64,000 bases of DNA from Nelumbo lutea (taxonomy: Eukaryota; Streptophyta; Magnoliopsida; Proteales; Nelumbonaceae), in contig JAKGHH010000004.1 in NCBI GenBank assembly GCA_022828595.1, positions 77,094,270 through 77,158,269 on the forward strand, in the 5' to 3' direction. Positions 796 through 60,549 of this stretch are shown piece by piece (position 1 is the first letter of the stretch; every line of letters starts with the position of its first letter). Made by a program: the position numbers and the translations under genes. The notes beneath the pieces were generated by a model. It worked only from the letters and a program-made list of their open reading frames with translations, made no database searches and had not been told where the DNA came from.

Positions 796-1039
796 CAATA
801 AAGCAGGTCGGCAAAGGGAGCAAGAAAAGGATGCCCCCGAGTCTAGCAAACAGACCTGCCGAACCATTGCAAGAAGCAGCCTCCGGAAGAGAGGCCAGTT
901 CGGGGAACCATCCATGTAATAGTGGGAGGATCCGTAGTAGCGGGGTGTACCTCGCAAGCAGCCCGGACTTCAGTTCGCGAAATGGCCCTCTGAAGAAAGG
1001 AACCCCCCAAAAGAGGCCAAAACCAAGAGCCAATCTTTC

Positions 1040-1459: not shown

Positions 1460-1546
1460 GGCGACCAGCTCGAGTCCCGCAAGTGCTACGTTGCCGCCCT
1501 AAAGGGAAAAACCAAGACGGCCGACGACCTCGAGCTGGAGCGGCCG

Positions 1547-3359: not shown

Positions 3360-3790
3360 AGAGCGAATTGGGATGAGGAGCCCTGGATCCTTCACGTGGA
3401 TGGTTCCTCGAACCGGCCAAGGGCAGCGGAGCTGGAATAGTCTTGTGTGGCCCGAGCGGCACAAAAGTAGAGTACGCGCTACGCTTTGAGTTCGCGGCAT
3501 CCAACAACGAGGCAGACGTACAAAGCACTAATCGCCGGGTTGGACCTAGCGCGAAAGTTTAAAGGCAAAACACTTGGTCATCTGCAGCGATTCTCAGCTC
3601 GTGGTAAACCAAGTTACCGGCGAGTACGAAGCACGCGTTCTCTCCATGATCGCATATTTGGCCAAAGTAAAAGAAGCCCTGCTCAACTTTCGGTCACACA
3701 TCATCAGGAAAATCCCGAGGTCCGAAAACACTGAGGCTGACGCCCTGTCCCGGTTAGCCAGCACGAGTCACAACAATATGAGAACCGTGT
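3360..3790 (+). pseudogene. RNase H domain of gypsy element 1
   Basis: Translation gives a WILHVDGSSN block at about 3380-3410 (first catalytic Asp region), then the ASNNEA segment near 3498-3515 and VICSDSQLVVNQVTGEY near 3575-3625, ending with SENTEADALSRLA near 3720. These are the ordered motifs of the RNase H that degrades the RNA strand in RNA-DNA hybrids. Two frames are needed, with a shift near 3520. The matching domain of element 2 is at 31144-31515 (-). Confidence 0.8.
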
Positions 3791-5109
3791 ACATAGAGGA
3801 CTTACCTTGGCCTAGTATTCTCGGGGGGACAGAGGAGGTCGCTCCCATATTAGAAGCAGAGCCGAGCTGGATCGATCCACTCGCGAGCTTCCTGATAGAC
3901 GGAACCCTCCTTGTAGAACGCAATGCCGCCAAAAGGGTGCAGCGCCAGGCGGCCAAATATGTCATAATAGACGAACAGTTATACCGACGGTCGTACACGC
4001 TCCCTATTTGCGGTGCCTGCGACCTACCGAAGCCGAGTTTGTACTCTCGCGACACTCATGAAGGCCTGTGCGGCGGACACTTGGGGGGCAGAGCACTCGC
4101 CCAAAAAGGCACTTCGACAAGGATACTATTGGCCAACGATGAAGGCAGAAGCTGTCGAGCTCGTCAGAAAATGTGACAAGTTGTCAGAAGCACGCTAACA
4201 TCCACCATCAACCTGCCTCCGACCTCAAATACCTCACCAGCCCGTGGCCCTTTGCACAATGGGGCATCGACCTCCTCGGCCATTCCCACCAGCAGCAGGC
4301 GGGTGAAAATTCTTAGTTGTTTGCGGTAAGATTATTTTAACGAAGTGGATAGAAGCCGAACCTCTGGCAACTGTTACGGCACGAAACATACAGAACTTCT
4401 TTTGGGAAGAACATAGTATGCCACTTCGGATTACCTCGGGTTCTAATTTCCGACAACGGCAAATCAGTTCGAGGATATCAAGTTCCAAGAGTGGTGCCAG
4501 GACATTGGGGATTCGGAAAATTTTCACATCAGTCCGTGCACCCACAGGCAAACGGTCAGACGAAAGTAATGAACAGAGCCATCCTACGCGGACTGAAAGC
4601 ACGTCTGGATCGAGCTAAGGGATTGTGGGCCGAAGAAGCTACCAAGTGTCTTATGGGCTTCACCGAACGACCGAAAAAGCAGGCCACGGGAGAAACCCCC
4701 TTCAACCTCACCTACGGCTCAACTGAAGCGGTGATCCCGGCCCGAAATCGAAATACCAATGTTGCGATTAGAATCATACGACGATCGGACGAACGGAGAC
4801 AAGTTATGCACCAACCTCGACCTACTGGACGAGGTAAGGGACCTCGTGCACATCCGAACAGCGGCATACCAGCAGCAGGTAGCTCGCTACTACAATAGCA
4901 GAGTAAAGCGACGAAGCTTCCGAGTCGGCGAACTGGTCCTCCGGAAAATTATGGTGCCCGAACCCGGCGTCGGCAAGCTTGGACCTAATTGGGAAGGGCC
5001 CTATAAAGTAAAAACAGCGCTCGGGGGCGCATATGAACTCGAAACCTTGGAAGGCAAACGAGTACCCCGAACGTGGAACATCGTGAACTTGAGGCGATAC
5101 TACCTATAA
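3791..5109 (+). pseudogene. Integrase of gypsy element 1
   Basis: The N-terminal zinc-binding region is visible near 4050-4100 (THEGLCGGHLGG), with a following Cys region near 4170-4190. The catalytic core covers about 4230-4620 (WPFAQWGID, then HPQANGQT) and is split by frameshifts. The C-terminal domain is intact from 4759 to the stop at 5107-5109, including RVGELVLRK and GPNWEGPYKV and ending in NIVNLRRYYL. This ending without a chromodomain fits Tat rather than chromovirus elements. It would insert the cDNA into the genome. It is inactive because of at least three frame changes. Confidence 0.85.
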
Positions 5110-5315
5110 ACCACCTAGCGAAGTGGACAAAGTCAGGCCGTGCCACAAGGCAAGCCGAGGAACTTCAGCACATTATCAGTTCGGCAAAAAATCAGTTCGT
5201 GGCATAAAAGACCACGGAAATCTAAAAACCCAGCAAAGAAACAGCTCGGGGAAGATGAGCAAGGGGAAAAAGACACTCCATTGCAAGAAACAGTACATTG
5301 GCAAAAAAAAAAAAA
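5110..5315. other. Spacer between integrase and antisense gene
   Basis: This is about 200 bases, rich in A and G, between two convergent reading frames: the pol stop at 5109 and the stop of the antisense gene at 5316. It holds an A-run at 5303-5315. Open frames on the + strand here are low-complexity, Lys-rich and without recognised motifs. Confidence 0.6.
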
Positions 5316-9619: not shown

Positions 9620-10633
9620 TCACAGTGGACGTTGCGTGTCGACTTGTTGTTCTTCGCCTTCGCCACCTCTTTCGAGATCAATGGTCTGTGTGGTAGAGCT
9701 GCAATTCGGCATCGTTGCCGCAGAAGGAGAAGAAAATCCAGCTCTTCGATCTCTGCTCAATATCCTCCTTAACGATAGAATCCGACTTCCCGGTGACTTG
9801 AACCCCTGGCTTGCTGGCGATCCCAAGCCTACCTCCTCATCCACACCTCTGAATCCTTCGTTGTTCCTTCTAGGCACCTCAATTGAAACACCCGCCAGCT
9901 CCAATGGCTTCCTTCGGGACCCTAAAGACGTTGATTCCGCCGGTGCTGAAGGAGGAAAAGGAAGAGGCGAAGAAGAAGAAGAAGAAGAAGAAGAAGAAGA
10001 CATGCAGGTGCAACTTGTTTCACTTTCATAATGGTGACACCCTGGGTTAAGCCCAGTAATCGACTCCACTTCTGTCTCGGGGGATTCGCCCACAGGGATA
10101 ACGACCTCAACCGGAGTTTCAGTCGCAGGGGCGGGAATATCGGGCTGGACAGGTGCTCGGCAAAGTGGGCAAGTAGAGTGAGAGTGGAACCACATATCTA
10201 TGCAATCGATATGGAAGCTGTGCTTGCATCTTGGGAGGAGACGACCCTTCTCGTTCTCCTCGAACTCGGATAGGCACACGGCGCATTCCAGTACTTCCTT
10301 GTGTGTGTCGGAGGAATAGATGAAGATGGGGAGAGCTTTCAGAACCGATGCGTCAAGACCCCGAGAAACGGTGTAAGCGGAAGCGACGGGGTCGGAGGTG
10401 GTGAAGACAATGTGGGTCCGGTGTCGGCTGCGGCGGATGTTGTGGCGCCTACGGGACCTTATGAGTAACCAACGGGCGTAGATATGGAGGCAGACAATCA
10501 ACAGTACGACGGCGAACAGTATGACAATTGCGCTCAGCATTATCTTCCCGCTAAGGGCGTAGTTCTTAGGCACATAGGTTCGTGACCCAGACCCATTATC
10601 CATGGAGACCTGCTCCTGATGTGTGCTACCCAT
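9620..10633 (-). CDS. ATL-family RING-H2 finger protein (predicted membrane E3 ubiquitin ligase)
   Basis: This is an intact single-exon gene of 337 codons. The first in-frame ATG is at 10633; a longer reading to 10645 would need a TTG start, so it is rejected. In order: a short hydrophilic N-terminus; one membrane helix (about residues 28-50, [19 protein letters not shown]); a basic segment; the GLD motif ([11 protein letters not shown]), diagnostic of ATL proteins; and the RING-H2 finger from CAVCLSEF through [13 protein letters not shown] to CPLCRAPV, with all eight zinc ligands present. The C-terminal half is variable, with an 11-Ser tract and a conserved-looking [13 protein letters not shown]. 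Known family role: transfer of ubiquitin from E2 to substrates at membranes, often induced by defence elicitors. Lack of introns is typical for ATL genes. The ATL subgroup is not resolved. Confidence 0.95.
9967..10000 (-). repeat. GAA/TTC microsatellite coding for the Ser tract of the ATL protein
   Basis: About eleven GAA triplets on the + strand are read as TCT (Ser) codons on the gene strand. They lie in the variable C-terminal region, so length changes would be tolerated in frame. Confidence 0.9.
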
Positions 10634-11100
10634 TAATTTCTTCAAGGTTGCTTATGGTTATGGACACTGAACTTGTGTGGTTTGGGGGCTCTGAGAAGAA
10701 GGGAGAGATAGAGAGAGAAACTGCGTATTTGTGTGTGTGTGTGAGAGAGCGAAAGAGGTTTCGTTGGGGAGCGTAGGAGTTTGGGAGGAAGGTTCTTGGT
10801 TGCTTGCTTTTATCGTCACCGATCCTCTCCTCCTCTGCGAGTCAGTCATCGGTCTTCAAACGAAGACGCCCGGATTGAAGCGCGTTGTGAGAGACGAAAA
10901 TACCCTTGGCGAACAAAATGAATTCCAAAGAGGCGTGGGTCATGTGAGCATGGGATGGACGGATCTGGTACAGCAGCAAACATGGCCCACTTGCAAATTA
11001 GTTGAGCCGTCTCGATTGTCGACCATCCGATTTACTATATACTCCATCATCAAGAGAGAGAGAGAGAGATAGCGAGAAATCCTCAAAAAAAGTCTAAACA
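10634..11100 (-). promoter_or_regulatory. Upstream region of the ATL gene
   Basis: On the gene strand the leader is rich in CT (about 10690-10760), as is common in plant 5' leaders. A GA/CT microsatellite lies at 11051-11070. A weak TATA-like GTATATAG is near 11033-11043 (-), about 400 bases before the ATG; its use as the promoter is a guess. Confidence 0.4.
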
Positions 11101-29123: not shown

Positions 29124-29823
29124 GGTTGGTTGCTCTCTTTTTTTCTTCTTCTGAAAAATGACTTTTGAAGTGGTTGCTCCCGGGCGACTGAGCCCAGTTC
29201 TCTTTCTTTTCTTTCTGCTTTACTGATGTACTCTCCCAGGCTGTTAGCCCCTATTTCTTTTTTAGAACTAGTAATGAAATGTTCCTTTTTTCTTCTAAGT
29301 ATTGTGTGATTCTCTCTTTTGCTGAAGTGACTATTTCACCCGAATTGCTAGGGAGAAGCACCCGAAGTGGGGTTTCTCGACTATCGTCGTCCCAAGCTAT
29401 CTCCCCATACTTAGTAGGGTGATTTTATAATGTACATTGAGGTGATCAACATAGTGAGCATATGTCTGACCTATGTGCACTTGGGTTACTTAAGTTGAAG
29501 TCACTTGTCCCTAGCGGGTCGAACTTGTATATCAGGGCGGGCTATGCATCATAGGATTCACACCCGAGCTACCTGTGCCTTTGGTATTAATATTTAGCCT
29601 ATGTCGATGAAGTGGTTAGTGTCGAGGTCTTCGTTAGCTCGGTGTTTTAGCCCTTAGGTTGGGGGAGTGACTTATGGTCCACTCTCCTAGAGTTTGCCCA
29701 TGTCATAGAGGCGACTGGGTCTTATAGTGCCGAGATCTTTTGTTAGCTCGGCATATTAGCCTTAGGCTCTGAGAGCGACTACAATCCACTCGGCTCGGTG
29801 ATTACTGGTAATATTACCTTAAG
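29124..29823. other. Spacer between antisense gene and integrase (element 2)
   Basis: About 700 bases, longer than the 205-base spacer of element 1. T-rich at first (the 3' trailer of the antisense gene), then a stretch with repeated 'gctcggtgttttagccttaggttggggg' type segments (about 29637-29665 and 29746-29775). No protein motif. Confidence 0.5.
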
Positions 29824-30990
29824 TTGACAATATTCCATGCCCGAGGTACTTGTTTCCCTTCTAGGGTTTCGAGTTCATACGTTCCTTCCCCGAGCATCCG
29901 CTTTACTCAGGAGGGTCCTTCCCAATTTGGCCCGAACTTATCAACACCGGGCTCAAGCACCATAACTTTACGAAGGACCAAGTCTCCGACACAGAGGTTC
30001 TGCTTCTTGACCCTGGCGTTATAGTACCGAGCTACTCTCTGCTAGTAAGCCGCCATCCTAATGTATGCGAGTTCCCGTACCTCGTTGAGTAGGTCGAGGT
30101 TGGTGCATAGCTCGTCTTCATTTGCCTTGTCATCATACACTTCCAAACGTAGCGTGGGAACTTCGATCTCGGCTGGGATGACTGCTTTAGTGCCATAAGT
30201 GAGGTTGAAGGGAGTCTCGCCTGTTGCGGTCTTTACCGTGGTCCGATAAGTCCATAGTACACTAGGTAGCTCGTCTACCCATAGCCCCTTGGCTCGATCA
30301 AGGCATGCCTTCAGTCCGCGGAGAATAGCTCTGTTTGTGACCTCCACTTGACCGTTTGCTTGAGAGTGTGCTACCGAGGTAAAGTTTTGTTGAATTCCCA
30401 TATCTTTGCACCAGTTTTGGAATTTAATATCCTCAAGCTGCTTACCGTTGTCAGAGATTAGTACTCGGGTAGTCCGAAACGACACACTATACTCTTCTAG
30501 AAGAAGTTCTGCACATTCCGCGATGTGATCGTCGTGAGAGGTTTGGCTTCTACCCACTTGGTAAAATAATCAACTGCCACCACTAAGAACCTCCTCTACC
30601 CTATCGCTGGCGGAAATGGTCCGAGTATATCGATCCCCCACTGTGCGAAAGGCCACGGGCTGGTGAGATACTTCAAGTCAGCAGTAGGCTGGTGGTGGAT
30701 GTTGGCGTGCTTCTGGCACTTGTCACATCTTCTGACGAGCTCGACCGCATCTACCTTCATTGTTGGCTAGTAGTATGCCTGTCATAACGCTTTCTGGGTG
30801 AGAGCCCTGCCCCCCAAGTGTCCACCGCACAGGCCCTCATGAGTGTTGCGGAGCCCGAGCTCAGCTTTGGAATGTCACAAGCAGTGCAGATAGGGGAGCG
30901 TGTAAGATATTCAGCACAGTCATTCATCTATTATGACGTATTTGGCCGCCTGATGCTCTACCTTCTGGTGGCATTGCGATCTGCAGGGAG
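29824..30990 (-). pseudogene. Integrase of gypsy element 2
   Basis: On the - strand the N-terminal THEGLCGGHLGG region is near 30840-30800 and the zinc-binding cysteines near 30735-30715. The core reads from 30557 (LISDNGKQLEDI, then HSQANGQVEVTNRAI) to 30042 in one frame. The C-terminal part continues to about 29824 after a TAG at 30042-30044. A further TAG interrupts the region before 30557. The pattern and the absence of a chromodomain match element 1. Confidence 0.8.
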
Positions 30991-31143
30991 GGTCCCGTGT
31001 AGCAGGAAGCTCGCGAGTGGATCAATCCAGTCTGACTCTACTTGAATGATAGGAGTGACCTCCTCTGCCCCCTCGAGAATGCTAGGTCGATGCAATTTCT
31101 CTATGTACACGGTTCTCATGGTATTATCACTAGTGCTGGCTAA

Positions 31144-31515
31144 CTAGGACAGGGCGTCGGTCTCAACATTCTCTGATCTCAAGATTTGCTTGATGAAGTG
31201 TGATTGGAAGTTAAGCATAGCCTCTCTTACTTTGGCTAAGTAGGCGATCATGGTTGGCTCGCGGGCTTCGTATTCACTTGTAACTTGGTTGACCATGAGC
31301 TGATAATCACTACAGACGACGATGTGTTTTGCTTTCACTTCGATTGCTAGAGCCAGTCCAACTAGTAACAACTCGTACTCCGCTTCATTGTTGGATGCCA
31401 CGAACTCAAAGCATAGCGCATCCTCCAATTTTACCCCGCTTGGCACATACAGAATGATTCCATCTCTGTTGCCCTTTTGGTTGGATGAGCCATCTACGTG
31501 AAGGATCCAGGGCTC
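31144..31515 (-). pseudogene. RNase H domain of gypsy element 2
   Basis: The reading contains CFEFVASNNEAEYELLLVGL, VVCSDYQLMVNQVTSEYEA and SENVETDALS in the right order. It follows a WILHVDGSSNQ-type start just upstream (about 31515-31480). In VVCSDYQL the catalytic Asp is kept although the usual Ser after it is Tyr. It ends at a TAG. Confidence 0.8.
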
Positions 31516-31521
31516 CTCATC

Positions 31522-32880
31522 TCAGTTCGGGTTCGATCTAACTAGGAGAGAAGTCGTACTAGTTGCTACCTCACGGTGCTCGAGCTCAACCGGCCTGGGA
31601 ACCTCGGGCTGATCCGACCTGGGGACTTCGGTGTTGAAAGTGCATTCTGCGACAAAGTCAGGTAAGGCTTGGGCCTTGATAGTAGTTCTCGGCTTGTATT
31701 GGAGGTCGTATTCACTGGGCTCAATGGCCCACTTCGTCAATCTACCAGAGACCTTGGGCCTGAGCAAGACTTGCCTTAGGGGCTTGTTGGTGAGGACGAC
31801 AATAATATGAGCTTGGAAGTACAGGCAAAGCTTTCGAGCTGCAACAACTAGAGCATATGCCAACTTTTCAATCTCTGGATATCTCGTCTCTGCTCCCTAT
31901 AACACTTTGCTAACATAGTAGATAGGTCGTTGGACCCTATCTACCTCTCTTATCAATACTGAGCTGACCACCTTGTCACTTGCAGAGAGGTACAGCTCCA
32001 AAACATCACCCTCCTCGGGTCGGGTTAAGACCGGGATACTAGCGAGGTATTTTTTGAGCTCGTCGAATGCGAGTTGGCATTCTTTAGTCCATTCAAAGCC
32101 TTTGCTTTTAATTGCCTTAAAGAAAGCCAGGCAGCGATCTACTGATTTGGACATGAAGCGGCTCAAAGTGGCTATGGGGCCATTCAACCTCTGAACCTCT
32201 TTCAATTTCCAGGGTGGTCTCATATTTAGGATGGCTTTAATTTTATCCGGGTTGGCCTCAATGCCATGCCAGTTAACAATGTACCCTAGGAATTTACCTG
32301 AGATGACACCGAAACACACTTTTTCGGGTTTAACTTCATATTAAATTTGCGCAAAATCTCAAAAACAGAATGCAAGTCTTGTATTAAATTATTTGAAAAC
32401 TAAGTCTTAACGACCATGTCGTCTACATAACATTCTACTTTTCTGTGAATTAATGGCTCAAATAATTTATTTACAAGTCTTTGAAAGGTAGCCCCGGCAT
32501 TTTTCAATCCAAAGGGCATGACCTTATAATAGTGCAAGCCTAGCCCAGTTATAAAAGTTGTTTTTTCTTCTTCGGCAGGGTCCATTCTTATCTGGTTATA
32601 GCCCGAGTAGGTGTCTAAGACACTCAGCAACTCATGCCCTGAGGCCACGTCCACCAGGCGGTCAATCTTGGGGAGTGGGAAGCAATCCTTCGAACAAGCT
32701 CGATTCAGGTCGGTATAATCGATGCACATGCGGCATTTACCATTGGCCTTCTTTATCAGGACTAGGTTGGCTACCCAGCTCGGGTAATTGACCTCTCTGA
32801 TGAAATCAGCTGCCTGGAGCTTCCCGACCTCCTTGTCAATTGCTCTCTAGCGCTCCGGGGCTAAGTTATGTTTCTTTTGT
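31522..32880 (-). pseudogene. Reverse transcriptase of gypsy element 2
   Basis: In order: CIDYTDLNRAC, FPLPKIDRLVD, VMPFGLKNAGATFQRLVN and the catalytic CYVDDMVVKT near 32440-32400, all in one frame (32729-32400). The thumb and connection follow in 32319-31897 and 31863-31522. At least two frame breaks and a TAG at 31897-31899 separate these parts. It would copy the element RNA into DNA. Confidence 0.85.
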
Positions 32881-33128
32881 CTAACAGGCAAAACTACAGG
32901 ATCAGTATTTAGCCTGCGAGTAATGATGGTTGGGTCTATGCTGAGCATCTCTGTCGTGGACCATGTAAAAACATCTAAATTTTTAAGTAAAAAACTTACT
33001 AGTTGAGATCGCAGAGGCTCCTCGATTGAAGTGCCAATTTGGAGTGTCCGAGTTGGGTCCTCTGTCGAAGTTGGGACGGAGACAGTCTCTTCTCTAGGTG
33101 TAGCTCGCTCTTCAAATTGCTCCGTAGG

Positions 33129-33758
33129 TCACTCCAACTCGAGGTCGTCGGCCACCTTGGTTTTCCCTTTGAGGGCAGCAACGTAGCACTTGTGAGACTC
33201 GAGTTGATCGCCTCGCGCTACCCCAACTCCGAAGTCCGTGGGGAACTTCATCACCAAATAATAGGTGGAGACCACCGCACAAAGAGCACGGGTGATGGGC
33301 CAACCTATTATGGCGTTGTATGGGGAGGAAATTGTGACCACCAAGAAGTCGTGGTTGAGCGGCACTATGGTAGGCCAGGTGCCGACTTCCATAGGTACTG
33401 TGATTCTCCCCAGGGGCTTGACTTCCTCTCCGCTGAAGCCTACCAAGGGAGTACTCGCGGGCTTGAGATCGCTCTCTTGGAGTTGAAGCTTGTCGAATGC
33501 TGCCTTGAAAAGAATGTTTGTCGAGCTGTCGGAATCGACGAGTACACGCTTCGCTTCAAAGTCATTGATCCTTATCTTTACGACGAGCGCGTCATCATGG
33601 GAGTAGTGGACCCTGTGCGCTTCATTCTCCATGAAGAAGATCGGGTCTTCCGTCCTTGGCCGCTTTAGGGGGTTCTGCTCTTCCCTTCCGATCTCCCGAG
33701 CTGATGTCTGAGCTACAACTGAGGTGCAGCCCATGACGACCGAACCTCCGACGATCAC
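33129..33758 (-). pseudogene. Protease domain of gypsy element 2, altered active site
   Basis: The reading is open for about 209 codons. The active-site segment reads VLVDSDSSTNILF, where element 1 has VLVDSGSSADILF, so the essential Gly of the Asp-Ser/Thr-Gly triad is replaced by Asp. The second motif IIGWP is at the expected distance. The flanking order, gag upstream and RT downstream, is normal. Confidence 0.85.
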
Positions 33759-33799
33759 ATGGATAGTCCCCCGAACTGGTCTCTCTTCGGGGGCTGCCT

Positions 33800-33868
33800 C
33801 TATGGCTGCTCAGCTTGCCTGCTGCTGGATTTGGGAGCGTCTCTACTTTGCACCCCCTGCCAACCTAC

Positions 33869-33937
<69 letters not shown>

Positions 33938-35707
33938 TTGTACAAAATTTCTTAGGTATCTGCGACGGATGAGATCTTCTATCTCATCGCGGAGGTTCTT
34001 ACAACTCTCGGTACTGTGACCGCGATCTTTATGAAAGCCACAATACAAATTCTTATTCCTTACATTATGGTCCCCTCTCAGATGGGGTGGCCACTTCACA
34101 TACGGGGCGTCCTTGATCGCCATAAGGATCTCGGCCCATTTTGCGTTCATGGGCGTGTAGTCTATCTTTTCTGCTGGAGGAGCTCAGAAAGGTTGTCTCG
34201 GCCTTGCCTCCCGAGCTAGGTCTTTCTTCTTCTTACTATCCCCATGGGTTGAGGACTCAACTTCTCTTTTCCTTTTCTTAGGCACGCTCTCATTCTTTTG
34301 GCCGATCTCATCCTCCGTCCCTATGAACTGGTCCGCGAGCTTGAGGAACTCGGTTATAGTCTTGGGCCGATTGACCACCATGTGCCACTTGAATTCTTTG
34401 TACGTGATGCCTCTCTTGGCCATTGAAAGCCAAACTGCGGGGTCCAGGTCAGGTATCTGTAAACAAGCGTCATTGAACCGCTTGATGTAACTTTGGATAG
34501 ATTCTCCCTCCCTTTGGACTATGCCAAGGAGGCTCTCTTGGGTTCCCAAGCACCGTTTGCTGGTGACGAAGTGAGAAGTGAAGACTTGCACGAATTGCGC
34601 CCAGCTTCTTATTGATCCGGGCGCAAGGTTCCTGTACCATGTGTGGGCCACTCATTTGAAAGTGGTGGAGAAAGCCATGCACATGCAGGACTCACTAGCC
34701 CTTGCTAAGTGCATCTATGACTGAAAGGTGTCTACGTGATCATTCGGGTCGAATGATCCGTCATATTTGTCCAGGGGAGGTAGATTGAAATCCTTGGGCA
34801 TTGGGATGGCCAAGAGTTCAAGAGACAGAGGGGATGGTACAGAGAGGAGCGGAGTGGCTTTTATTTCACCCAAGCTTACCTCTTCCTTACCCTTGAGCTC
34901 AGGCAGGTTATGTGTTGCAGTTCGGCGAGCTCGGCGACGTCTCCGCTGCTTTTTTGTGGGCTCTGCATTGGTGTTGCTAGCCTCGGTATTGTCGAGCACA
35001 GTTTTCGTAGGGAGGAGGACAGACTGCTGGTGATGGTTGCGGATAGAGGGATCTTGCCTGGAGTCTGTAGCCAAGACCTCGAACCGGTTCTCCACAAGCA
35101 GGGCCATAAACTCAGAAAGCTGAGGCGATGCAGGCCTGGTAGGCTGGGACCCTCCAGACATGACTGCGCTCGGTGAGGCAGGGGTGACTGGTCTTTCCTT
35201 CCTCCCATGGGATGAGACTTGACTCTTGAGAGGATTCTGGGTCTGAGAGGTCTCTCCCTGGCGAGAAGGACGTTCGTTCTGACGGCAAGGCCGGACTTGT
35301 TGCACGGTCGGATGCCGAGGAGGAAGCGGCTGCTGGGTCTGAGGTAGCGGAGGAAACTGCTACTGATAGTGATGCTGAGAAACTTGGTGCAGCATTTGCT
35401 GTTGATATAATTAGAATTGTTGAACCCGTTGCATCTGAGCTTGTATAACTCGAATGCATTGCACCAGGTCTTCAAGGTGGTTTTGGGCAGTCACGGGAGG
35501 AACAAGGGAGGGTTCGGTGAAGGTTGTTCCAACCGTGAAAGGAAGTTGAGCGTTCACGGGTGCCATTGTCTGAGGCACGTTTAGAATGGGAACTCCATCC
35601 GTAGAGAGGGGGATGGTGAACTGTCCAATATACACTACTGGGACCTGGAGTTGCTTCCCGACGGTGTTCATTTCTGCATTGCGTCCTGCGTTGCTGGAGA
35701 AAGCCAT
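33800..35707 (-). pseudogene. Gag of gypsy element 2
   Basis: The start is taken as the ATG at 35707 (MAFSSNAGRNAE). The capsid-type domain lies in 35305-34184 (KYDGSFDPNDHVDTFQ, later SWAQFVQVFTSHF and ESIQSYIKRFNDACLQIPDL). A zinc-knuckle-like CGFHKDRGHSTESC is near 34040-34000. Stops and frame changes occur near 35411, 34712 and 34652. Before the protease it has 22 Asn codons in a row, produced by a microsatellite. Confidence 0.8.
33869..33937. repeat. TTA/AAT microsatellite within gag
   Basis: About 22 TTA units on + are AAT (Asn) codons on the gag strand. At the same place element 1 has only a short caacaataacaataa stretch, which suggests expansion of a short seed after insertion. Confidence 0.95.
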
Positions 35708-40754: not shown

Positions 40755-40990
40755 CGATCAACAAAAAAACAGAATGCACTTATCTAGGAACAGAAATTGA
40801 AGACTTATCTAATGCACTTATCTAGGAAACAGAATGCACTTATCTAGGAGCAGAATTGAAGACTTATCTATTCTAACAGAATTAAAACTGAATGGATAAG
40901 GCTTATCCCAACTAAGAGCTAACATGACCGGGTCTTCTGCTGCTATCCACTTTGACCGGGTCTTCGGCTGCTGCATGCATGCACGTATCA
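40755..40990 (-). repeat. 3' LTR of chromovirus, internally deleted
   Basis: This is a 236-bp LTR against 437 bp at the other end. The + strand starts CGATCAACAAAAAAAC directly after GAAGC, where the full LTR would start TGATACGC. The missing part corresponds to about 45295-45471. It also has one unit fewer of the GAATGCACTTATCTAGGAA repeat. Confidence 0.9.
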
Positions 40991-42321
40991 TTCTCCTCCC
41001 CCCCTGAAGGACCCTTGTCCGCAAGGAAGTTGGGATAAGCTTTTCTGAAGCGCCATTCATTCTCCCAGGTTGCATCCTCAGCTGGCGCCCCAATCCATTT
41101 GACCAAGGCTTCGGATTTTGGGCGGTATTTGCCCTTGTGAATAATACGGCGATCCAGGATTGCTTCCGGTTGGGGTAGGATGGTCGAAGTATCCGAGATT
41201 GGAGGAAGCTGAGTGGAAGTAGGGGTGATGGGTCCCAAGTGCTTCCGCAGCAAACTGACATGAAACACATTGTGGATTTGAGAGCCGGGGGGCAAGGCTA
41301 AGCGGTAGGCTACTGGACCAATCTTCTCAATGATTGGGTACGGCCCAAAATAACGTGGGGCGAGCTTCATGGAACGCCGAAACGCCACTGAGGTCTACCG
41401 GTAAGGCTGTAGCTTCACATACACGAAGTCACCTGCTACGAATGAGACTTCTCGTCGGTGCTGGTCCGCTTGACATTTCATCCGGTTCCGGGCTACCTGG
41501 AGGTTATGTTGTAGTTCGCGTAGGATGATGTCCCGGTCATGCAAGTATTCGTCAACTGCCCCTACTCGAGCTGTACCCGGTACATAGGTCAGGAGACTAG
41601 GGGGTGGGATTCCGTAGACTGCTTCGAAGGGTGTCATTTTGGTGGAAGAGTGAGTGGAGGTGTTGTAGCTGTATTCTGCCCAAGGAACCCACTCTACCCA
41701 TTTTCGCGGCTAGTCACCTGCAAAGCACCGTAGATATTGCTCCAACGTCTGGTTAACAACTTCGGTTTGCCCATCGGTTTGGGGGTGGTAACTGGAGCTA
41801 ATACACAATTTTGTCCCATGCATCTGAAAAAGTGTCTGCCAGAATGAGCTAATGAATACCTTGTCACGGTCGCTAACAATGGATGTTGGTACTCCGTGTA
41901 GGCGGACAACGTTGGCAACAAATGCCTTCGCGACTGTGGTGGCAGTGAATGGGTGTTTTAAGGGAATGAAGTGGGCATATTTTGTCAACTGATCCACAAT
42001 TACCATGATAACCGTGTACCCATTGGAGGAAGGCAATCCTTCAATGAAGTCCATGGAGATGTCTGTCCACATTTGAGTAGGAATTGGTAATGGCTGAAGC
42101 AATCCCGTTGGTCTCATGCAATCTGTTTTGAAGCGTTGACATACGTCACATTGTTGCAAGAACTCCTTCATCATCCGACGCATGTGGGGCCAAAGGAAGC
42201 TGTGCTTGATGCGAGAGAGGGTCTTATGAAACCCAAAGTGTCCCCCTACAGGGGATGAGTGGCAGTCTGCCACCACCTTTGAAATCAAGGTGGAGGTGGG
42301 GCTCAAATAAATCTTGGCCAC
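40912..42321 (-). pseudogene. Integrase with C-terminal chromodomain (chromovirus)
   Basis: The zinc-binding N-terminus reads VGGHFGFHKT...CDVCQRF. The catalytic core has the conserved acidic residues in DISMDFIEGLP and SIVSDRDKVF, with YHPQTDGQTEVVNQTLEQYL holding the Glu. A TAG at 41710-41712 and another at 41395-41397 interrupt otherwise continuous homology. The GPF-like part (LAPRYFGPYPIIEKIGPVAYRL) and the chromodomain (ILDRRIIHKGKY, then ALVKWIGAPAEDATWEN) follow. The final stop at 40912-40914 lies inside the 3' LTR, so the last codons are LTR-encoded. The chromodomain is expected to bind modified histone H3. Confidence 0.9.
40991..41006 (-). promoter_or_regulatory. Polypurine tract of chromovirus
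   Basis: On the - strand AGGGGGGGAGGAGAA immediately precedes TGATACGTGC, the start of the LTR. It is the plus-strand primer site. Confidence 0.85.
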
Positions 42322-43475
42322 CAGTCTGCGCGTGGTATAGAGATGGAAAGAAACTGAAATTCAGCCATACGTGACAAGGAATCCGCACCTTGGTTCTCAG
42401 CCCCTTTTTTATACTCGATCTCATAGTCGTAGCCCAGTATCTTTGGCAACTACCGCGTTTGTGCCGGTGTGGTTATCCTCTGCTCGAGTAAATATTTAAG
42501 ACTTTTTTGGTCGGTGCGGACTGTGAATGGTTTCCCAAGCAGATATGGGCACCATTTCTTAACGGCTTTGACAATAGCTAACATCTCCTTCTCATAGGTG
42601 GATAATGCCAAGGCTGAACCTTTCAATGCTTCACTGAAATAGGCCACCGGTCGGTTTTGCTGGATGAAGATGGCGCCAATCCCGGTTCCACTCGCATCGC
42701 ATTCAATCACAAACCGTTGGGAGAAATCTGGTAGACGTAGGATTGGCGGTGAAGTGAGTGCCTTCTTCAATTGCTGAAAGGCCAGCTCTGCTGCCTCGTT
42801 CCATTGAAATCCCCCTTTGGTCAACAGTTGGGTTAAGGGAGCTGCAATGCTTCCGAAGTCGCAGATGAACTTCCGGTAATATCCTGCTAACTCGAGGAAG
42901 CCACGGACCCCCTTTGCTGATGTCGGTGTAGGCCATGCGAGAACAACTTGTATTTTGGCTGGATCAATGGACACGCCTTGTTCTGAAATCACATGACCCA
43001 AGTACTCGACCTGCGAAACCCCAAATTGACATTTTGACATTTTTGCAAATAATTTGTTAGAGGATAATACAGTTAGAACAACTCTCAAATGAGATAGGTG
43101 GTCTTCCCATGATTTAGAATAAACTAGAATGTCGTCGAAGAAGACCAAAATAAATTTCCGGAGGTATGGGCGGAAGAGGTCGTTCATGAGGCTTTGAAAA
43201 GTTGCAGGTGCATTCGTCAAGCCGAACGGCATCACTAAGAACTCGTAATGCCCTTCATGTGTTCGGAAAACCGTTTTAGGAACGTCTTCTTCTTGCACTC
43301 GAATCTGATGGTATCCCGACCGTAGATCTAGTTTGGAGTAAAATTTGGTGCCGTAGAGCTCATCTAATAATTCATCAATCACGGGAATGGGATACTTGTT
43401 TTTAATAGTGATTTCGTTCAGTGCTCGGTAATCCACGCAAAACCGCCAAGCTCCATCAGCCTTCTTCACTAGCAA
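42224..43475 (-). pseudogene. Reverse transcriptase and RNase H (chromovirus)
   Basis: From 43475 to 42450 one frame carries CVDYRALNEITIKNKYPIPVIDELLDEL, SKLDLRSGYHQIR, MPFGLTNAPATFQ and the catalytic VFFDDILVYS. RNase H follows with VIECDASGTGIGA and TYEKEMLAIVKAV. A TAG at 42450-42452 interrupts it; homology continues to about 42260 (EYKKGAENQGADSLSR). RT residues appear intact. A small indel near 43480 separates it from the upstream frame. Confidence 0.9.
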
Positions 43476-45266
43476 ACCGGCGATGAGAATGGGCTATTGC
43501 TTGGTCTTATCAGCCCTGTCTGCAAAAGCTCCTTCACCATCTTCTCTATTTCGGTCTTCTGGTAATACGGGTATCGATATGGCCTCACACTCACCGGTCC
43601 TTTGTCGGGAAGCAGTGCAATCCGGTGGTCATGTGGTCGTTTAGGAGGCAGGCTTGTGGGCGGCTCAAACACATGGGAAAATTCGGTGAGAAGGTGGTCC
43701 ATCTCGGGTGGAAGAAAACCTGGTTGGCCGTTGCTATGTGAAGGAACTATTTGAAAAAAAAAATCCCGTACCTTGTAACCCATTGCATTCCTTGTTGGTT
43801 AAGGCTTCGATGCTGGCTCGTCCCAATCCTTGGAAGGTGCAAGAGAGTCCCTCCTTTTTGAACGTCAAGGTTAGTTGTTTGTAATCCATCTCGACGGGTC
43901 CAAGCGTCTCTAGCCACTGTACTCCCAACACCAACTGGCATGCTGCGACGGGAAGAACATAATAGTCAGCGGTAACGGGGTGTCCTTGAATGGCGAGGGT
44001 GAGAGATCGGCACTGTCCCATACACTCGATCTTTTCACGGTTGGCCACCATAACTTGAAATTTCTTGTCTCGGTTCACTGGCAACCCGAGCTTGGAGACG
44101 ATGGCTTGGTCAATGAAGTTGTGGGTGCTGCCGCCATCAATTAATACGGTCACGTTCTTGTTTTTCAGTTTCCCAAGAACACGTATGGTTTGCGGGTGCT
44201 CAGCTCCTGCAATAGCGTGGAAGGAGATTTCAGGGATGGCTTCTTGGTTTTCCTCCTCTGATTCGACAGTCTCCGCGTCCGCCGGTTCCGGATCCTCAAT
44301 CATGAACAGTTGTGGATGTGCACAACGGTGGCCGGAGGTGAACTTCTCATCACAGTAGTAACACAGCCCCTTCTCACGACGTTCTCGCGCCTCCTGGTTG
44401 GTGAGTCGCCGGAATGTTGAGGAAGGAGCACTGGAAACCTGGTTCGCGCGCGAGCTTGGTGGAGGCCCAAGTACACCGGCCATGGGGTTGGGCGACGCCT
44501 TCTGGGTTGTCATGGCTGATGGGGATCGAATCGGTTGGCTAGCTCTCCGCTGTAAGTGATTTCGTTCCTCAATTAACCAGGCCACTCCAATCGCCTCTAT
44601 CAAAGTTCGACGCTGCTTGATCTTCACATCTAAACGAACGTCATCACAAAGTCCTGCAATGAAACAGCCAATGAGAAAGCTCTCGGGCAGGCCGTCAACT
44701 TGGTGAGAGAGCCTCTCGAAGGCTTCTTGATAAGCCGTCACAGTGGTGGTTTGCTTTAGGCGGGTTAATGCCTCTGATGGGTCATCGTAGTCGGTGGGGC
44801 CAAACCGTTGTAACACCGTTTTGGAGAGTTCTTCCCATGTGAGCGGTCCGCGATGCTTGGTCAACCACCTGTGCCACTGTAAGGCGATGCCTTCCAAATG
44901 GAAGGAAGCTAGCTGCACCTGTTGGTCTGGAACAATATTTTGAAATTCAAAATACTGCTCCGCCTTGTAAATCCAACCGCTCGGATCATCCCCATTAAAT
45001 TTTGGGAATGACAGCTTGACATGTTGATGAGGGTGGTCATGGGTGGAGCTTGAACGGGAAGTATGGGGCTGTGAGGATTCTTCATGGGCGAAGGGGTTGG
45101 TCTCGGGAGTGGTATTGGGAGTGGTTCGTGAGGCTCGAAGGGCTTGGAGTTCAGTTAACACTGCTTGCAAGATAGTGTTCATTTGGTCGAAGCTCGACTC
45201 ATGTCGTGCTAAGGTTTCATTGACCTCATTGCGGAACTCCGCGTTCGTCTTTCCACGGGTGTCCAT
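43469..45266 (-). pseudogene. Gag and protease (chromovirus), frameshifted at the 3' end
   Basis: ATG at 45266 (MDTRGKTNAEF). The 510-codon frame has a coiled-coil N-terminus, the capsid domain (KLSFPKFNGDDPSGWIYKAE, later WEELSKTVLQRFG), a CCHC-like knuckle (CYYCDEKFTSGHRC) and the protease triad in VTVLIDGGSTHNF, where the usual Asp-Ser/Thr-Gly is Asp-Gly-Gly. It ends at 43734 after a frameshift in a ten-base A/T run (43755-43764). The next frame (43783-43469) continues into the RT N-terminus. Confidence 0.9.
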
Positions 45267-45276
45267 GGTCGAACCG

Positions 45277-45290
45277 GCTCTGATACCAAT
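45277..45290 (-). promoter_or_regulatory. Primer-binding site for initiator tRNA-Met (chromovirus)
   Basis: TGGTATCAGAGCC on the - strand lies directly after the LTR. It is the standard site complementary to the 3' end of initiator tRNA-Met. Confidence 0.9.
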
Positions 45291-45727
45291 GATACGCTCA
45301 AGTTATCTAACAAGAGGGAGAAGGATCTAGAATAAGGAGAAGAGAGAGAGAGAGAGTTTGTTTGTAGAAAAGCCAATGCCAACTCCATTCATTCAGGCTA
45401 TATTTATAGCCTTATGGTGCTACAAACTGGGAGTAGAAATAGGAACTACTGCCCCTTAATCTTAGGAGCTTATCAACAAAAAAACAGAATGCACTTATCT
45501 AAGAAACAGAATGCACTTATCTAGAAACAGAAATTGAAGACTTATATAATGCACTTATCTAGGAAACAGAATGCACTTATCTAGGAACAGAATTGAAGAC
45601 TTATCTATTCTAACAGAATTAAAACTGAATGGATAAGGCTTATCCCAACTAAGAGCTAACATGACCGGGTCTTCTGCTGCTATCCACTTTGACCAGGTCT
45701 TCGGCTGCTGCATGCATGCACGTATCA
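45291..45727 (-). repeat. 5' LTR of chromovirus
   Basis: 437 bp with inverted ends TGATACG/CGTATCA. A TATA box (CTATAAATA, -) is near 45401-45409. It contains four copies of a CAGAATGCACTTATCTAGG-type 20-bp unit and a GA microsatellite (45341-45357). It is nearly identical to the retained part of the 3' LTR. Confidence 0.95.
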
Positions 45728-53783: not shown

Positions 53784-54162
53784 GGCTGCGTTTGGAAACA
53801 ATGCAAATAAGTGTGAAAGTAAATATGTAGAATGTAAAATGGTTCATATAAATTGCAAAGTTGAATTAATTTTGCATTGACAAATTTACCTTCTTACCTA
53901 ATAGACTTTTAGTTGTAATAGATGCCAACATGAATTTCAATAAAGCATATACTTTTTTTTTTATCAAAAGCCGACTTGAATGCAAATTTACTAATTTTTT
54001 ATAGATGTACTTTTACATCTTACTATCAATTTAAATATGCATTGGTCTGTCATTTCTTAATGCATAAATATAATGCTGCCAAAAACAAACAGAAATGAAC
54101 TAGAGTGCAAATTTACCTCAACCGGGATTTACACTCCATTTGCATCATTTCCAAATGCAGAC
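53784..54162. mobile_element. Tourist-like MITE
   Basis: It starts GGCTGCGTTTGGAAACAATGCAAA and ends TTTGCATCATTTCCAAATGCAGAC (inverted). The flank is TTA on the left and TTT on the right, so the duplication has one mismatch. 379 bp, AT-rich, non-coding. Confidence 0.65.
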
Positions 54163-54550
54163 TTTCAATCAGAAAAACAAATTGCATTGCTTAAGCCCAA
54201 AGATTCAAAAAACTTTACAGCCTTGCTCATGATAAAAAACTTCCCGTGGATTGCTAAAGATGCATTGTACTCTTTAGTCTATATTTGTTTGCAGTGTAAA
54301 ACTCCATCAATGTAAAAAGTTCATTGATGGAGTTCAACACCAATAGTTTAAAATTTGTGAACCATTGTATTTTGGTAAACGTGATTATCCATGTAGCATT
54401 TACATCGATATAGTATTTACATCGATTATCCATGTAAAACTTTATCTTAAGTGGAGTTTTATGTTGATTTATGATATAAAATTGTACTCCATCCAAACAT
54501 CGATAAATATAAACCGGAAATGTAATTTTACACCAATCTTTATTTATATC

Positions 54551-54779
54551 TATTAAGCGAGCAAGAGAGACTTATCTTAGAATCGCCTTATCCTCTGTAA
54601 ACCTTATCCTTATCTCTTGTATGTTTTAGTTGTTCTTGGTTTTGTTTTTCATTGTTCTTTTAAGAGACTGTAATTACATTCCTAGTGGTGAGTCGAACTC
54701 TCCTCCGTATATAAATTCCCAGCAATCGTTTGCTGGAACAGGGATGGAAAGAAAACTTTTCCTTCGACTGTAGTTCTCA
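54551..54779 (+). repeat. 5' LTR of copia element
   Basis: It starts TATTAAGCGAGCAAG after the ATATC duplication and ends GTAGTTCTCA, directly followed by the primer site. A TATA-like GTATATAAATTCC is at about 54707-54719. Confidence 0.95.
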
Positions 54780-54792
54780 TGGTATCAGAGCC
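54780..54792 (+). promoter_or_regulatory. Primer-binding site for initiator tRNA-Met (copia)
   Basis: TGGTATCAGAGCC is adjacent to the 5' LTR. Its last bases overlap the beginning of the captured RACK1 sequence. Confidence 0.9.
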
Positions 54793-55457
54793 TGAATAAT
54801 AGCCCCCGCATCAATCGAGTAGAGCCTCTTTCCTTCTGCCAAGTCCCAAAGCAGAGTTCTACCGTTTTTGCCACCACTGGCACAAAGAGAGCCATCGGGC
54901 GAAACTGCAACAGTGTTCACGTAACCTCCGTAACCGGTCAACGTGCAGCGCAATTTACAATTGGTAAGGTTCCAAACCTTCACGACCCGATCCCAAGATC
55001 CAGAGACAATAGTGGGTTGGAATGTATTGGGGCTGAACCTGACGTAGCTCACCTAGTTGGTGTGGCTGTAAGCATCCTGAATTGTGTACTTGCATTCTCC
55101 AAGTGCATCCCAAAGCTTGATAGTGCGGTCCCGAGAAGCAGAGACGATCTGGCGGTTGTCGATAGAGAAGGCAACGGAGAGGACATCCTTGCTGTGACCA
55201 ACGAAGCGGTGAGTGGTAATGCTGGTATTGAGGTTCCAAAGGCAGAGCTCGCTGTCCCAAGAGCCGGAGAGAGCGAACTGACCGTCGGAGGAGAGCACGA
55301 CATCCTCCACGAAGTGAGAATGACCGGTGAGATGGCGGCGGGGGACACCATATGTTCCTCTTCTTTGGTGAGATGCCAGACAAGGATGAACTTGTCACGG
55401 GAAGAAGAAACAATCATGTCAGAATTATCGATAGGAGTGGCGATAGCGGTCGTGGAC
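54786..55457 (-). pseudogene. RACK1: Captured RACK1 (receptor for activated C kinase 1) fragment inside copia
   Basis: On the - strand the reading starts [20 protein letters not shown] and continues through [81 protein letters not shown] and [14 protein letters not shown] to [17 protein letters not shown]. These are consecutive WD40 blades of plant RACK1, a scaffold bound to the 40S ribosomal subunit. About 17-20 N-terminal residues and the last part of the final blade are absent. There is one frameshift (near 55350) and one TAG (55053-55055) where a Trp is expected. No intron is seen across the fragment. It lies antisense to the element, in the place of gag. Confidence 0.95.
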
Positions 55458-56026
55458 GTGGAGGAGTACAGAGAGCAAATGCTGCGCAAGCAGTAGGGCA
55501 AACTTCTGAATCAATCCATGCAATAGAAGGAGATCGTACAACATTCGGTGGATTGACTAATGAACAATGGTCCACTTTTCTTAATCTCTTGAATTCTTGC
55601 AAACCCAGCACAAGTGAGAAGGTGATAGGTATGAATTGGATAATTGATACAGGAGCCTCACACCATATGACCGGGAACTTGAATCACTTGCATGATACCG
55701 AGACTGTGACTGGTTGTCAGGTTGGATTGCCCGATGGAAAGCATGCCATGGCAATAAAGAAAGGGACCGTCATTTTAAATAAACACATGAACCTTACTAA
55801 TATGCTTTATGTTCCTCGGTTGAATTGTAACCTGATATTTGTGTCGCAATTATTAGAGGAATCGAATTGTAATATCCAATTCACTAATAAGTTTTGTGTT
55901 ATACAGGACCACACTTCGAGGATGGTGATTGGTGCGGGTGAACTACGTGGAGGGCTCTACTGCTTCAAAGGTGCATACTCAAGCAAGGTTCATAAGGCAG
56001 AAGTTAAAGCTCCATACGAGTTATGA
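55352..56026 (+). pseudogene. Copia gag C-terminus and protease, fused to antisense RACK1
   Basis: The gag tail starts near 55445 with SGRGRGG and continues to LTNEQWSTFLNLLNS. The protease active site is NWIIDTGASHHMTG near 55635-55675 (Asp-Thr-Gly intact), followed by the conserved LTNMLYVPRLNCNLIFVSQL. The frame is open upstream through about 30 codons that are the antisense of RACK1, so a chimeric reading exists. It ends at a TGA where the pre-integrase region begins. Confidence 0.85.
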
Positions 56027-57090
56027 CACAAGAGAATGGGTCATCCCTCCGAGAAAGTAATTAAACTTCTTCCTAATGTGAACATTAGATGTAGTGGTGG
56101 AAATAGGATTTGTGGTGTTTGTTCAAAAGCCAAATAGACAAGAGGTACGTTTGATTCTAGTGAAAATAATGCTAAAGGGATTTTCGATTTGATTCGTTGT
56201 GATTTATGGGGTCCGTACTCTGTACAAGCATCTTGTGGTGCCTCGTATTTTTTTACTATTGTTGATGAATTCTCGCGAGTTGTTTGGATTTTCTTACTTA
56301 ATGACAAAAGTGAAGTGGGCAAAACGCTGCGGAGCTTCTTCACTATGGTTAAACGCCAATATGAAAAATTGGTGAAGATAGTTAGAAGTGATAATGGTAT
56401 TGAATTTACTTGCTTGAAGGAATATTTTTCTGAGCAAGGTATAATACATCAGACCTCATGTGTTGAAACACCGCAACAGAATAGATGTATCGAGAGAAAG
56501 CATAAACATATACTGAATGTTGCCAGAGCCCTTAGGTTTCAGGCTAATCTCCTTATTGAGTTTTGGGGAAAATGTGTTATGATGGCTGGTTATCTGATCA
56601 ACAGGACCCCCTTCACTCTCCTTTTGGGAAAAACACCGTATGAGATGTTGTATGGGCAGAAACCAAGCTACAAGCATATACGAACGTTTGGGTGTTTGTG
56701 TTATGCACGAAGCCTAAATCGTACCAGGGATAAGTTTGCCAGTAGAGCCAGACGTTGTGTCTTTGTGGGATACCCCTTTGGCAAGAAGGGGTGGAGAGTT
56801 TATGACTTAGAAAATAATTAATATTTTGTTCCCTGGGATGTGGTGTTTTCAGAAACTAAGTTTCCCTATGCTATTGAAGAAAAACAAGTCGAATACAGAC
56901 ACAATGATGGTAATCTTGATTATAACCAGGTGGAGACTGAAGTGTATGACGAGGAAGATAGTGAAAGTAAAAGAGATAGTACTCGTGAGGTCATTAGAAA
57001 GGGAGAACAAAGCGACAGTTGTGAAAATAATGAAGGGGAGCATGATGTAAGGGGGGATTCTGTGGAAGAAACGAATGCAGGGAATTAGCA
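56027..57090 (+). pseudogene. Copia integrase
   Basis: GAG-pre-integrase motif remains are near 56036-56140 (MGHPSEKVI, then the Cys pair in ICGVCSKAK followed by TAG). The core contains FTIVDEFSRVVWIF, IVRSDNGIEF and CVETPQQNRCIERKHKHI with the Asp-Asp-Glu set. The C-terminal motif region includes FGCLCYARSLNR and CVFVGYPFGKKGW. A TAA follows at about 56819 and a variable acidic linker runs to 57088. It is placed before RT, the defining Ty1/copia order. Confidence 0.85.
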
Positions 57091-57339
57091 ACTTGGACGA
57101 GGCCATAGAGTGAAGCGTCCTTCCAGTCATCTCAAGGACTACGTCATACACACCACATGGTGTTCCAACCACAGTCTGAGCCCCTTTGCCAGTTCACCTC
57201 GTCGATCTCACTCTTCAGGTACTCCCTATCCTATAACACAGTATGTGAATTGTGATAAATTTTCTTTGTGACACTGCTCTTTCTTAGCAGCTGTCACAGC
57301 AAGTCATGAGCCCCAGAGTTATTCAGAGGCTATCAAAGA

Positions 57340-58300
57340 CTCTCGTTGGAGATAAGCAATGAAAAAGAAAATTGAAGCTTTAGAAAACAATAGGACCTAG
57401 ACAGTGGAGAACTTGCCAACAGGGAAGAAGGCTCTCGGAAGTAAATGGGTCTACAAGATAAAGTACAACTCAGATGGCACAATAGAACAGTACAAAGCAC
57501 GTTTGGTGATCTTCGGAAACAAACAAGTTGAAGGGATTGACTACAATGAAACATTTGCGCATGTGGCAAAGATGGTTACAGTTCGAACATTCCTTGTAGT
57601 TGTTGCGGCTAGAAACTAGGAACTGCATCAGATGGATGTGCAAAACGCATTTCTCCATGGAGATCTACAAGAAGAAGTGTATATGAAGATGCCTCCTGGA
57701 TTTGCTTCAAGACTACCTGGAAAGGTGTGCAAGCTGCATAAGTCGTTTTATGGTTTGAAACAGACCCCTCGTTGCTGGTTTGCTAAACTCACGATAGCCT
57801 TGAAACAGTATGGCTTTACCCGGTCACAATCTGATTACTCATTGTTTACGCTTCGACGGAAGCACGAACAGTTAAATATTTTGGTTTACGTGGACGATCT
57901 TGTCATCTCTGGAAATAACGGCAATGCCATTTGGAGATTCAAGAAGTATCTCAGCCAATGCTTCCACATTAAGGACTTGGGAACTTTGAAATATTTTTTA
58001 GGAGTGGAGGTCGCCAGAAGCTAGAAAGGTATTTTTCTTTGTTAGCGGAAGTACTCGTTGGATATCATATCAGAAACCGGTTTGTTAGGCGCTAAGCCAA
58101 CTGGACTTCCCCTAGAACAAAATCATAAACTAGCTCTGGCAGATGATCCTCTGATGATAAAGTCGGAGAATTACAGGAGGCTAGTGGGTCGTTTAATTTA
58201 CTTGACCATTACCCGGGATAGGGAATTTTCCTTCCAGCTGGTAGTGATCTTCGATTGCATGCCTACTGTGACTCTGACTGGGTCGGGTGTCCACTAACAC
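57340..58300 (+). pseudogene. Copia reverse transcriptase
   Basis: Motifs in order: GSKWVYKIKYNSDGTIEQYKARLV, then MDVQNAFLHGDLQEEVYMKMPPGF, LHKSFYGLKQTPRCWF and the catalytic NILVYVDDLVISG near 57870-57915. Stops at about 57399 and 57617 (both TAG) and around 58022 break the frame. Near 58215 roughly 40-60 codons usually found between RT and RNase H are missing. Confidence 0.85.
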
Positions 58301-58734
58301 AATGCACTCTCACAGGATACTTTGTTTTATTGGGCCGAGCACCTATGTCGTGGAAGACAAAGAAGCAACTTACAGTGTCCAGATCATCAGTTGAGATGGA
58401 ATACAGGTCTATGGCAACAGTTGCATGTGAGTTGAAATGGTTAAAAGGGTTGTTGCATTCATTAGGAGTTGATCATCATGACCCTATGCGGTTATACTGT
58501 GATAGTCAAGCAGCCTTGCATATCGTTGCGAATCCGGTCTTCCATGAGAGGATTAAACACATTGAAGTAGACTATCACTTTGTCCGCAATAAAATCCAGA
58601 ATGGGAATATACGGCCTTCCTACGTCCGGACTTTAGAGCAACTTGCCGATATGTTTACAAAGGCCCTGGGCGGGCAACAATTCGAACATCTTCTTGCCAA
58701 GTTAGGCATTTCCCATTTACATGCTCCAACTTGA
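58240..58734 (+). pseudogene. Copia RNase H
   Basis: HAYCDSDWVGCPLT begins the domain (Asp of the active site). TVSRSSVEMEYRSMATVACELKWL holds the Glu, and LYCDSQAALHIVANPVFHERIKHIEVDYHFVR holds the later Asp. The stop TGA at 58732-58734 falls next to the polypurine tract. The domain itself is unbroken from 58255. Confidence 0.9.
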
Positions 58735-58741
58735 GGGGGGG
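58731..58741 (+). promoter_or_regulatory. Polypurine tract of copia
   Basis: TTGAGGGGGGG lies immediately before the 3' LTR start TATTAAG and overlaps the pol stop codon. Confidence 0.85.
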
Positions 58742-58970
58742 TATTAAGCGAGCAAGCGAGCGTTATCTTAGAATCGCCTTATCCTTTGTAAACCTTATCC
58801 TTATCTCTTGTATGTTTTAGTTGTTCTTGGTTTTGTTTTTCATTGTTCTTTTAGGAGACTGTAATTACCTTCCTATTGGTGAGCCAAACTCTGTTCTGTA
58901 TATAAATTCCCAGCAATCGTTTGCTGGAATAGGATGGAAAGAAAACTTTTCCTTCGACTGTAGTTTCTCA
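58742..58970 (+). repeat. 3' LTR of copia element
   Basis: 229 bp, the same length as the 5' LTR, with scattered substitutions and two single-base indels relative to it. It is followed by ATATC. Confidence 0.95.
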
Positions 58971-59056
58971 ATATCACAAACAAACGCCAACAAATGCAGA
59001 CTGGGAGTAGAGTTTTACACCAGTCCGTGTTTACACCACAAACAAACGCAGCCTTA

Positions 59057-60549
59057 ACATCTGGTGTGAAGTCAATGGCCTCAATGTTTTCAACACAGGT
59101 GTAATCCAGTCAGGCCTGTGTTGAATATTTGTCAAATTACCCACTGGGCCACCATTGATGGCAGAAAATTTTGGCTGTTGGGTGTCTACAGTTTATGACG
59201 TTGAGAGCATTTTTGGACATGACACAGTACCATGAATGTAGAGTAAAACCGTAAAAAAAAAGTAATTTCTCTATATTTTATAGGCTTCATTCGGGAAGAG
59301 TGCAAGGGGCTGTGTTTGGTTGCAGAGTGAATTTATTTTCATTAGTACATTTATTTCATTTGTATTGCAATCAAACAAAATAAATTAAAATTTGAAACAA
59401 AAATAAGTTAAATTTTATACTCAAATTTTACATTGATGCCAAACAAAACCTATAGTAAAAATACAAATATGTAGAATGCACTTGTGCATGTAAATGCAAA
59501 GTTGTTTTAATTTAATATGCATTGATGAAATTACTTTCTTGTCAAAGGATTTTAAGTTATAATGTGTTTAAACACAAATCCCAAGATTGAAATATACACT
59601 TTGAATACAAACATGCCTTGCTCCGCACTTGGCCACCTAGCGTTTACCATGGGCACAATAACTGGTACACCAGAGGTGCGTCCTTCCCGGTCCTCTCAAT
59701 GCTCTAATGCCCACACCGGATATGGACCGGAATTTATGAAAACTATCACTTTCAATTTGGGGTGCTCAAATGTGGGCCTATTTTCCAAATCAAACTGGTA
59801 ACTCAAATTGAACAGAAGCTAAACGATTAATCAATTGGTCGGCTTGGTTCACTGCCAATTCAATTCATCAATTTTTTTATTTCTAAAATATATTATAAAT
59901 AAATATATAAATATATAATATAAGTTAGAAATATATATAAAATACTATACTATAAATAATAAATAATATATATTATATTATATATAATGCAGATATATAT
60001 ATATTCATTTATGACATAAATAATATAATATAATATAATATATTAACCGACGGTTTTTTATATTGATTAACTGGAACTTAATTGGTACCTTTGATTTTTT
60101 TTTTTAAATACTGAACCAATTGATTCAGTTAACCGAAATTTTTTATTTAATCGTGTCGGTTCGATTTGGTTTTTCTATTTTTCAATTTTTCTATTTCAAT
60201 ACATAAGTAGATTCTTACTAAATACTATGACATCAAAACCAAACCCAAACCCAAACACATGTATTAATCCGCATCCCCTACCAACCAAATGGCATTCCAA
60301 CACCGCACAATCTCACTTTTATGCATGGTGGATTCCATTCCCATGATGAGATATGCGGTGTGTGACCATATTGATATTGATAGGGTGTTGAACATGTTTT
60401 ATTGGCAATATATCTCAATATCCACTTAACCATCATTTACACTCTTCGCAATGGACCCTTACGAAGAATACGATCCAGGGACCTTGGGCAGGTTTTTCTC
60501 TCGTATGCCCAGATTTCAATAATCAAGGTTTGAGAATAGACTAGATCAC
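59057..60549. other. Intergenic repeat debris
   Basis: It contains Tourist-like orphan ends (GGCTTCATTCGGGAAGAG at about 59283 and GGCTGTGTTTGGTTGCAG at about 59310), a very AT-rich TATAAATAATATA stretch (59880-60045) and a decayed foldback at about 60281-60412 related to 13417-13579. No gene was seen. Confidence 0.4.

Follow-up and report, generated by a model that had tools for sequence, protein, structure and literature searches.

Antisense RACK1 next to the primer site of a decayed copia-type retrotransposon in Nelumbo lutea, and a possible plus-strand route of capture

Host gene capture by long terminal repeat (LTR) elements of plants is reported as well documented (PMC2774510, PMC3726574, in a set that includes PMC13317346, PMC4838847, PMC5408686 and PMC7264820). 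The figures given are 425 intact LTR elements with gene fragments and at least 189 captures in maize (PMC2774510), and 672 captured genes in rice and 1,343 in sorghum (PMC3726574). Here we describe an element in a 64,000-nucleotide stretch of Nelumbo lutea (contig JAKGHH010000004.1, positions 77,094,270 to 77,158,269), referred to below as the window. The element, at positions 54551-58970 of the window, is a decayed, gag-less copia-type LTR retrotransposon that carries a piece of the host gene RACK1 in antisense. A preliminary description had called such captures known in few cases, which the hundreds of captures in maize, rice and sorghum show to be overstated (PMC2774510, PMC3726574).

Like the captures in these three grasses, the element holds a host gene piece between its LTRs (PMC2774510, PMC3726574). 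Its unusual feature is the antisense orientation of the captured gene, because transduced genes are usually in sense relative to gag-pol according to a review (PMC7264820), a comparison based on that general statement. Maize Bs1 is likewise an LTR element containing host gene pieces, but those derive from three host genes (PMC13317346), whereas here there is one; this one is antisense and stands directly after the primer site. The extra open reading frames (ORFs) of Grande, RIRE2, Retand and PvRetro13 likewise run antisense to gag-pol within LTR elements. Unlike the RACK1 piece, however, they are situated between pol and the 3' LTR, and no similar gene sequences outside those elements are reported for them in the review (PMC7264820). 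The literature searched, with partial coverage and judged mostly from search listings, contained no case of RACK1 capture by an LTR element and none of antisense capture at primer sites or of misdirected plus-strand transfer.

A single ATATC target-site duplication encloses the LTRs, the antisense RACK1 piece and pol together (Table 1). Re-measurement of the LTRs, the duplication and the RACK1 alignment placed the earlier coordinates right within about ten bases and recovered ATATC outside both LTRs. The duplication supports the earlier claim that these parts moved as one unit; further transposition of the chimera finds no such support. The integrase lies upstream of the reverse transcriptase, which is the Ty1/copia order, and a G-rich tract precedes the 3' LTR. 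Both LTRs begin with TA (54551 and 58742); the usual LTR start is TG. Outside the target-site duplication the element is flanked by direct repeats (53821-53919 and 59465-59563) that are 74.8% identical.

Table 1. Features of the element and its target site (positions in the window).
Feature	Position	Strand	Basis or remark
Target-site duplication ATATC, left	54546..54550	.	sequence match
5' LTR, 229 bp, ends TA...CA, TATATAAA at 54708	54551..54779	+	LTR comparison
Primer binding site TGGTATCAGAGCC	54780..54792	+	CAGAGC at 54786-54791
RACK1 fragment, 658 bases, antisense to element	54793..55450	-	one in-frame stop, one frame change
Arg-Gly-rich stretch, then Pol_BBD (residues 103-177 of ORF 55331-56023)	55451..56023	+	Pfam for Pol_BBD
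Integrase core (rve) and SH3-like domain	56138..56818	+	Pfam
Reverse transcriptase (RVT_2), two open pieces	57401..58021	+	Pfam
Open stretch, copia RNase H-like	58222..58731	+	motif resemblance; no Pfam match
3' LTR, 229 bp	58742..58970	+	LTR comparison
Target-site duplication ATATC, right	58971..58975	.	sequence match

The coding capacity of the element is degraded. Open stretches of at least 60 codons number seven, one and three in the three plus frames of the internal region, where 29, 106 and 72 stops respectively occur, and the pol matches are spread over several open pieces; pol is therefore broken. The stretch before the 3' LTR resembles copia RNase H. With E-values up to 1 admitted, no gag family was detected in the two ORFs that cover the region, 54774-55493 and 55331-56023, and the element is therefore classed as copia-type but defective rather than complete. 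Of the earlier claim that RACK1 replaces gag, the position of the RACK1 piece and this lack of a gag match stand; that an end of gag is retained is a matter of resemblance only, as we take the Arg-Gly-rich stretch to be that end.

Translated from the minus strand with the stop read through, 54786-55355 gives a 190-residue alignment with RACK1 (E-value 3.1e-105 to the best solved chain). This agrees with the earlier identification of RACK1 on the minus strand between the primer site and the Arg-Gly stretch. Of the 25 sequences listed, four solved RACK1 chains, which we take to be plant proteins, rank above all remaining RACK1 entries, with identities of 150/190, 149/190, 153/190 and 146/190; against an Arabidopsis segment, 144 of the 190 aligned residues are identical. 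Beyond the aligned part, up to about 55450, the RACK1 sequence reads in a different frame. The piece thus has one frame change and one in-frame stop; it shows pseudogene decay and does not include the RACK1 3' end. The alignment has no inserted stretch within the 190 residues that it covers; one intron is described for the Arabidopsis RACK1 genes (PMC2577656). Elsewhere in the window tblastn detected no other RACK1; outside the element the top match had E 1.2.

Insertion of the piece as a processed pseudogene by a long interspersed nuclear element is disfavoured, because its ends show neither an A or T run nor a duplication above chance. Runs of A or T of at least 6 are absent from 54770-54805 and 55435-55475, although the RACK1 3' end is not in the piece. 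The longest direct repeat shared by the ends is 5 bases and does not sit at matching edges; among 2000 random pairs, 1223 do as well. On the plus strand, the frame aligned with the antisense RACK1 codons (54780-55493) is open for 238 codons. A fusion protein from this frame was considered and rejected, as the Leu and Ser codons of the RACK1 frame include no TTA, CTA or TCA and the open frame has no ATG before 55320.

Several wider searches were unproductive. Viral contigs scanned with the reverse transcriptase, RACK1 and RNase H-like pieces yielded no confirmed relative, and the 24-mer across the junction had 0 exact matches in them. The RACK1 scan of prokaryote genome contigs gave 7 loci at 26-36% identity, which were not used. 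A plasmid search gave no match, and Rfam at the gathering threshold had 0 matches across the window.

At the first junction the primer site TGGTATCAGAGCC passes into RACK1 without a gap. The site matches over 13 bases the sequence that we take as the complement of the initiator tRNA-Met 3' end. Its CAGAGC doubles as the minus-strand RACK1 codons GCT CTG, encoding Ala-Leu. Two of the four RACK1 references also have Ala-Leu here, and the other two have Thr-Leu and Ser-Leu; the preceding residue is Gln in the element and His (three) or Asn (one) in the references. If bases are equally frequent, a random join would show a match of at least 4 bases with a probability of 0.016 and of at least 6 bases with 0.0013. 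The second junction lies near 55448-55451.

The first junction hints at the step of reverse transcription at which the RACK1 piece was acquired. With a probability of roughly 0.5, we suggest that it was acquired through misdirected plus-strand strong-stop DNA and then integrated at this site. The 3' end of this DNA, which copies the primer tRNA, would have annealed through CAGAGC/GCUCUG to RACK1 mRNA (or RACK1-sense complementary DNA, cDNA) instead of to its own minus strand. Extension on the RACK1 template would then have produced antisense RACK1, followed by a switch, at the Arg-Gly-rich end of gag, to the cDNA of the minus strand. Such a transfer would explain together the antisense orientation, the position after the primer site and the loss of gag. 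The orientation would follow because the mRNA is copied during plus-strand synthesis; copying it into the minus strand gives a sense insert. In Ty3, plus-strand DNA is reported to halt after 12 nt of the tRNA, and dead-end products pile up (PMC5371799).

The extent of decay bears on the time of capture. Of the 228 sites compared between the LTRs, 13 are different (7 transitions and 6 transversions), and there are 2 one-base gaps; the Kimura two-parameter distance is 0.0594. At assumed substitution rates between 1.3e-8 and 2.5e-9 per site per year, this corresponds to an insertion age of 2.3 to 11.9 million years. The RACK1 piece is changed at 15 of the 150 residues that are invariant in the four references, or at 14 of 143 when the Arabidopsis segment is added. 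Half the LTR divergence predicts 10.2 changes (P of 14 or more, 0.15). Since the observed decay (15) is near this expectation, capture was probably close in time to insertion; some of the differences may be the host gene's own. A single C:G-to-T:A change can account for ten of the 15 (in 5 CG, 2 CHG and 3 CHH contexts) and another single change for four; the one that needs more, Gly to Ser, was excluded from the test of C:G-to-T:A changes. These account for 10/14 changes, compared with 14.5% of nonsynonymous opportunities (P 2.3e-6, under a uniform null that ignores normal mutation bias), an excess that we read as no more than compatible with methylation-like decay. C-to-T changes number 8 for the plus strand and 2 for the minus, a bias no stronger than opportunity gives (P 0.33).

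Several observations weigh against misdirected plus-strand transfer. The CAGAGC overlap is inferred through codons and reference proteins, not host RACK1 nucleotides; GCTCTG also occurs once within the captured piece, and the window has 33 occurrences of the hexamer when both orientations are counted. The evidence of overlap comes from the first junction. The tRNA match is 13 bases here and 12 in Ty3, which is a distant yeast element. Capture at twice that age, with 20.5 RACK1 changes expected from the full LTR divergence, retains some likelihood. An older chimeric lineage, transposed several times as a unit and represented here by one copy, would also suit the slight surplus of RACK1 changes (15 against 10.2). 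We consider it improbable, as the window holds no second RACK1 and an element in which no gag was found would need help in trans.

The published model of LTR-mediated capture is template switching at short similarities (PMC5408686), and a switch during minus-strand synthesis with a return near the primer site is the most serious competitor, though a rather unlikely one. A sense mRNA copied in this way gives a sense insert, so antisense RACK1 RNA or RACK1 cDNA would be required, and synthesis would also have to come back at the primer site. Less likely still is that the element had already inserted and a break in it was repaired with RACK1 cDNA or a piece of the gene. Mouse zygotes are reported to repair breaks with spliced mRNA that has been reverse-transcribed (PMC4516963), but here two things would have to be coincidences: that the join falls at the primer site, and the nearness of the RACK1 decay to the LTR divergence. 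The same nearness, together with the intact duplication on both sides, makes an assembly artefact very improbable, even though the sequence of the locus rests on one assembly.

Misdirected plus-strand transfer might, as a tentative extension, be a separate way in which host genes are captured. Its mark would be host mRNA sequence in antisense that adjoins the primer binding site directly, the join being made through a short match to the tRNA copy. If the junction is read correctly, a survey of plant genomes for host sequence lying in antisense immediately behind primer sites would show whether retroelements regularly acquire host genes at the second strand transfer. Hypothetically, the antisense RACK1 leader could also feed small RNAs against RACK1.

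The window contains other repeats and a likely host gene. A Gypsy-type element on the minus strand (40764-45727) has direct repeats at 40764-40990 and 45501-45727 that are 97.8% identical, and matches for gag, protease, reverse transcriptase, RNase H and integrase. Long inverted repeats at 1-5127 and 29785-34728 are about 72-74% identical. The minus-strand ORF 9623-10651 encodes 343 amino acids with a RING finger (zf-RING_2, E 1.2e-12) and is likely a host gene.
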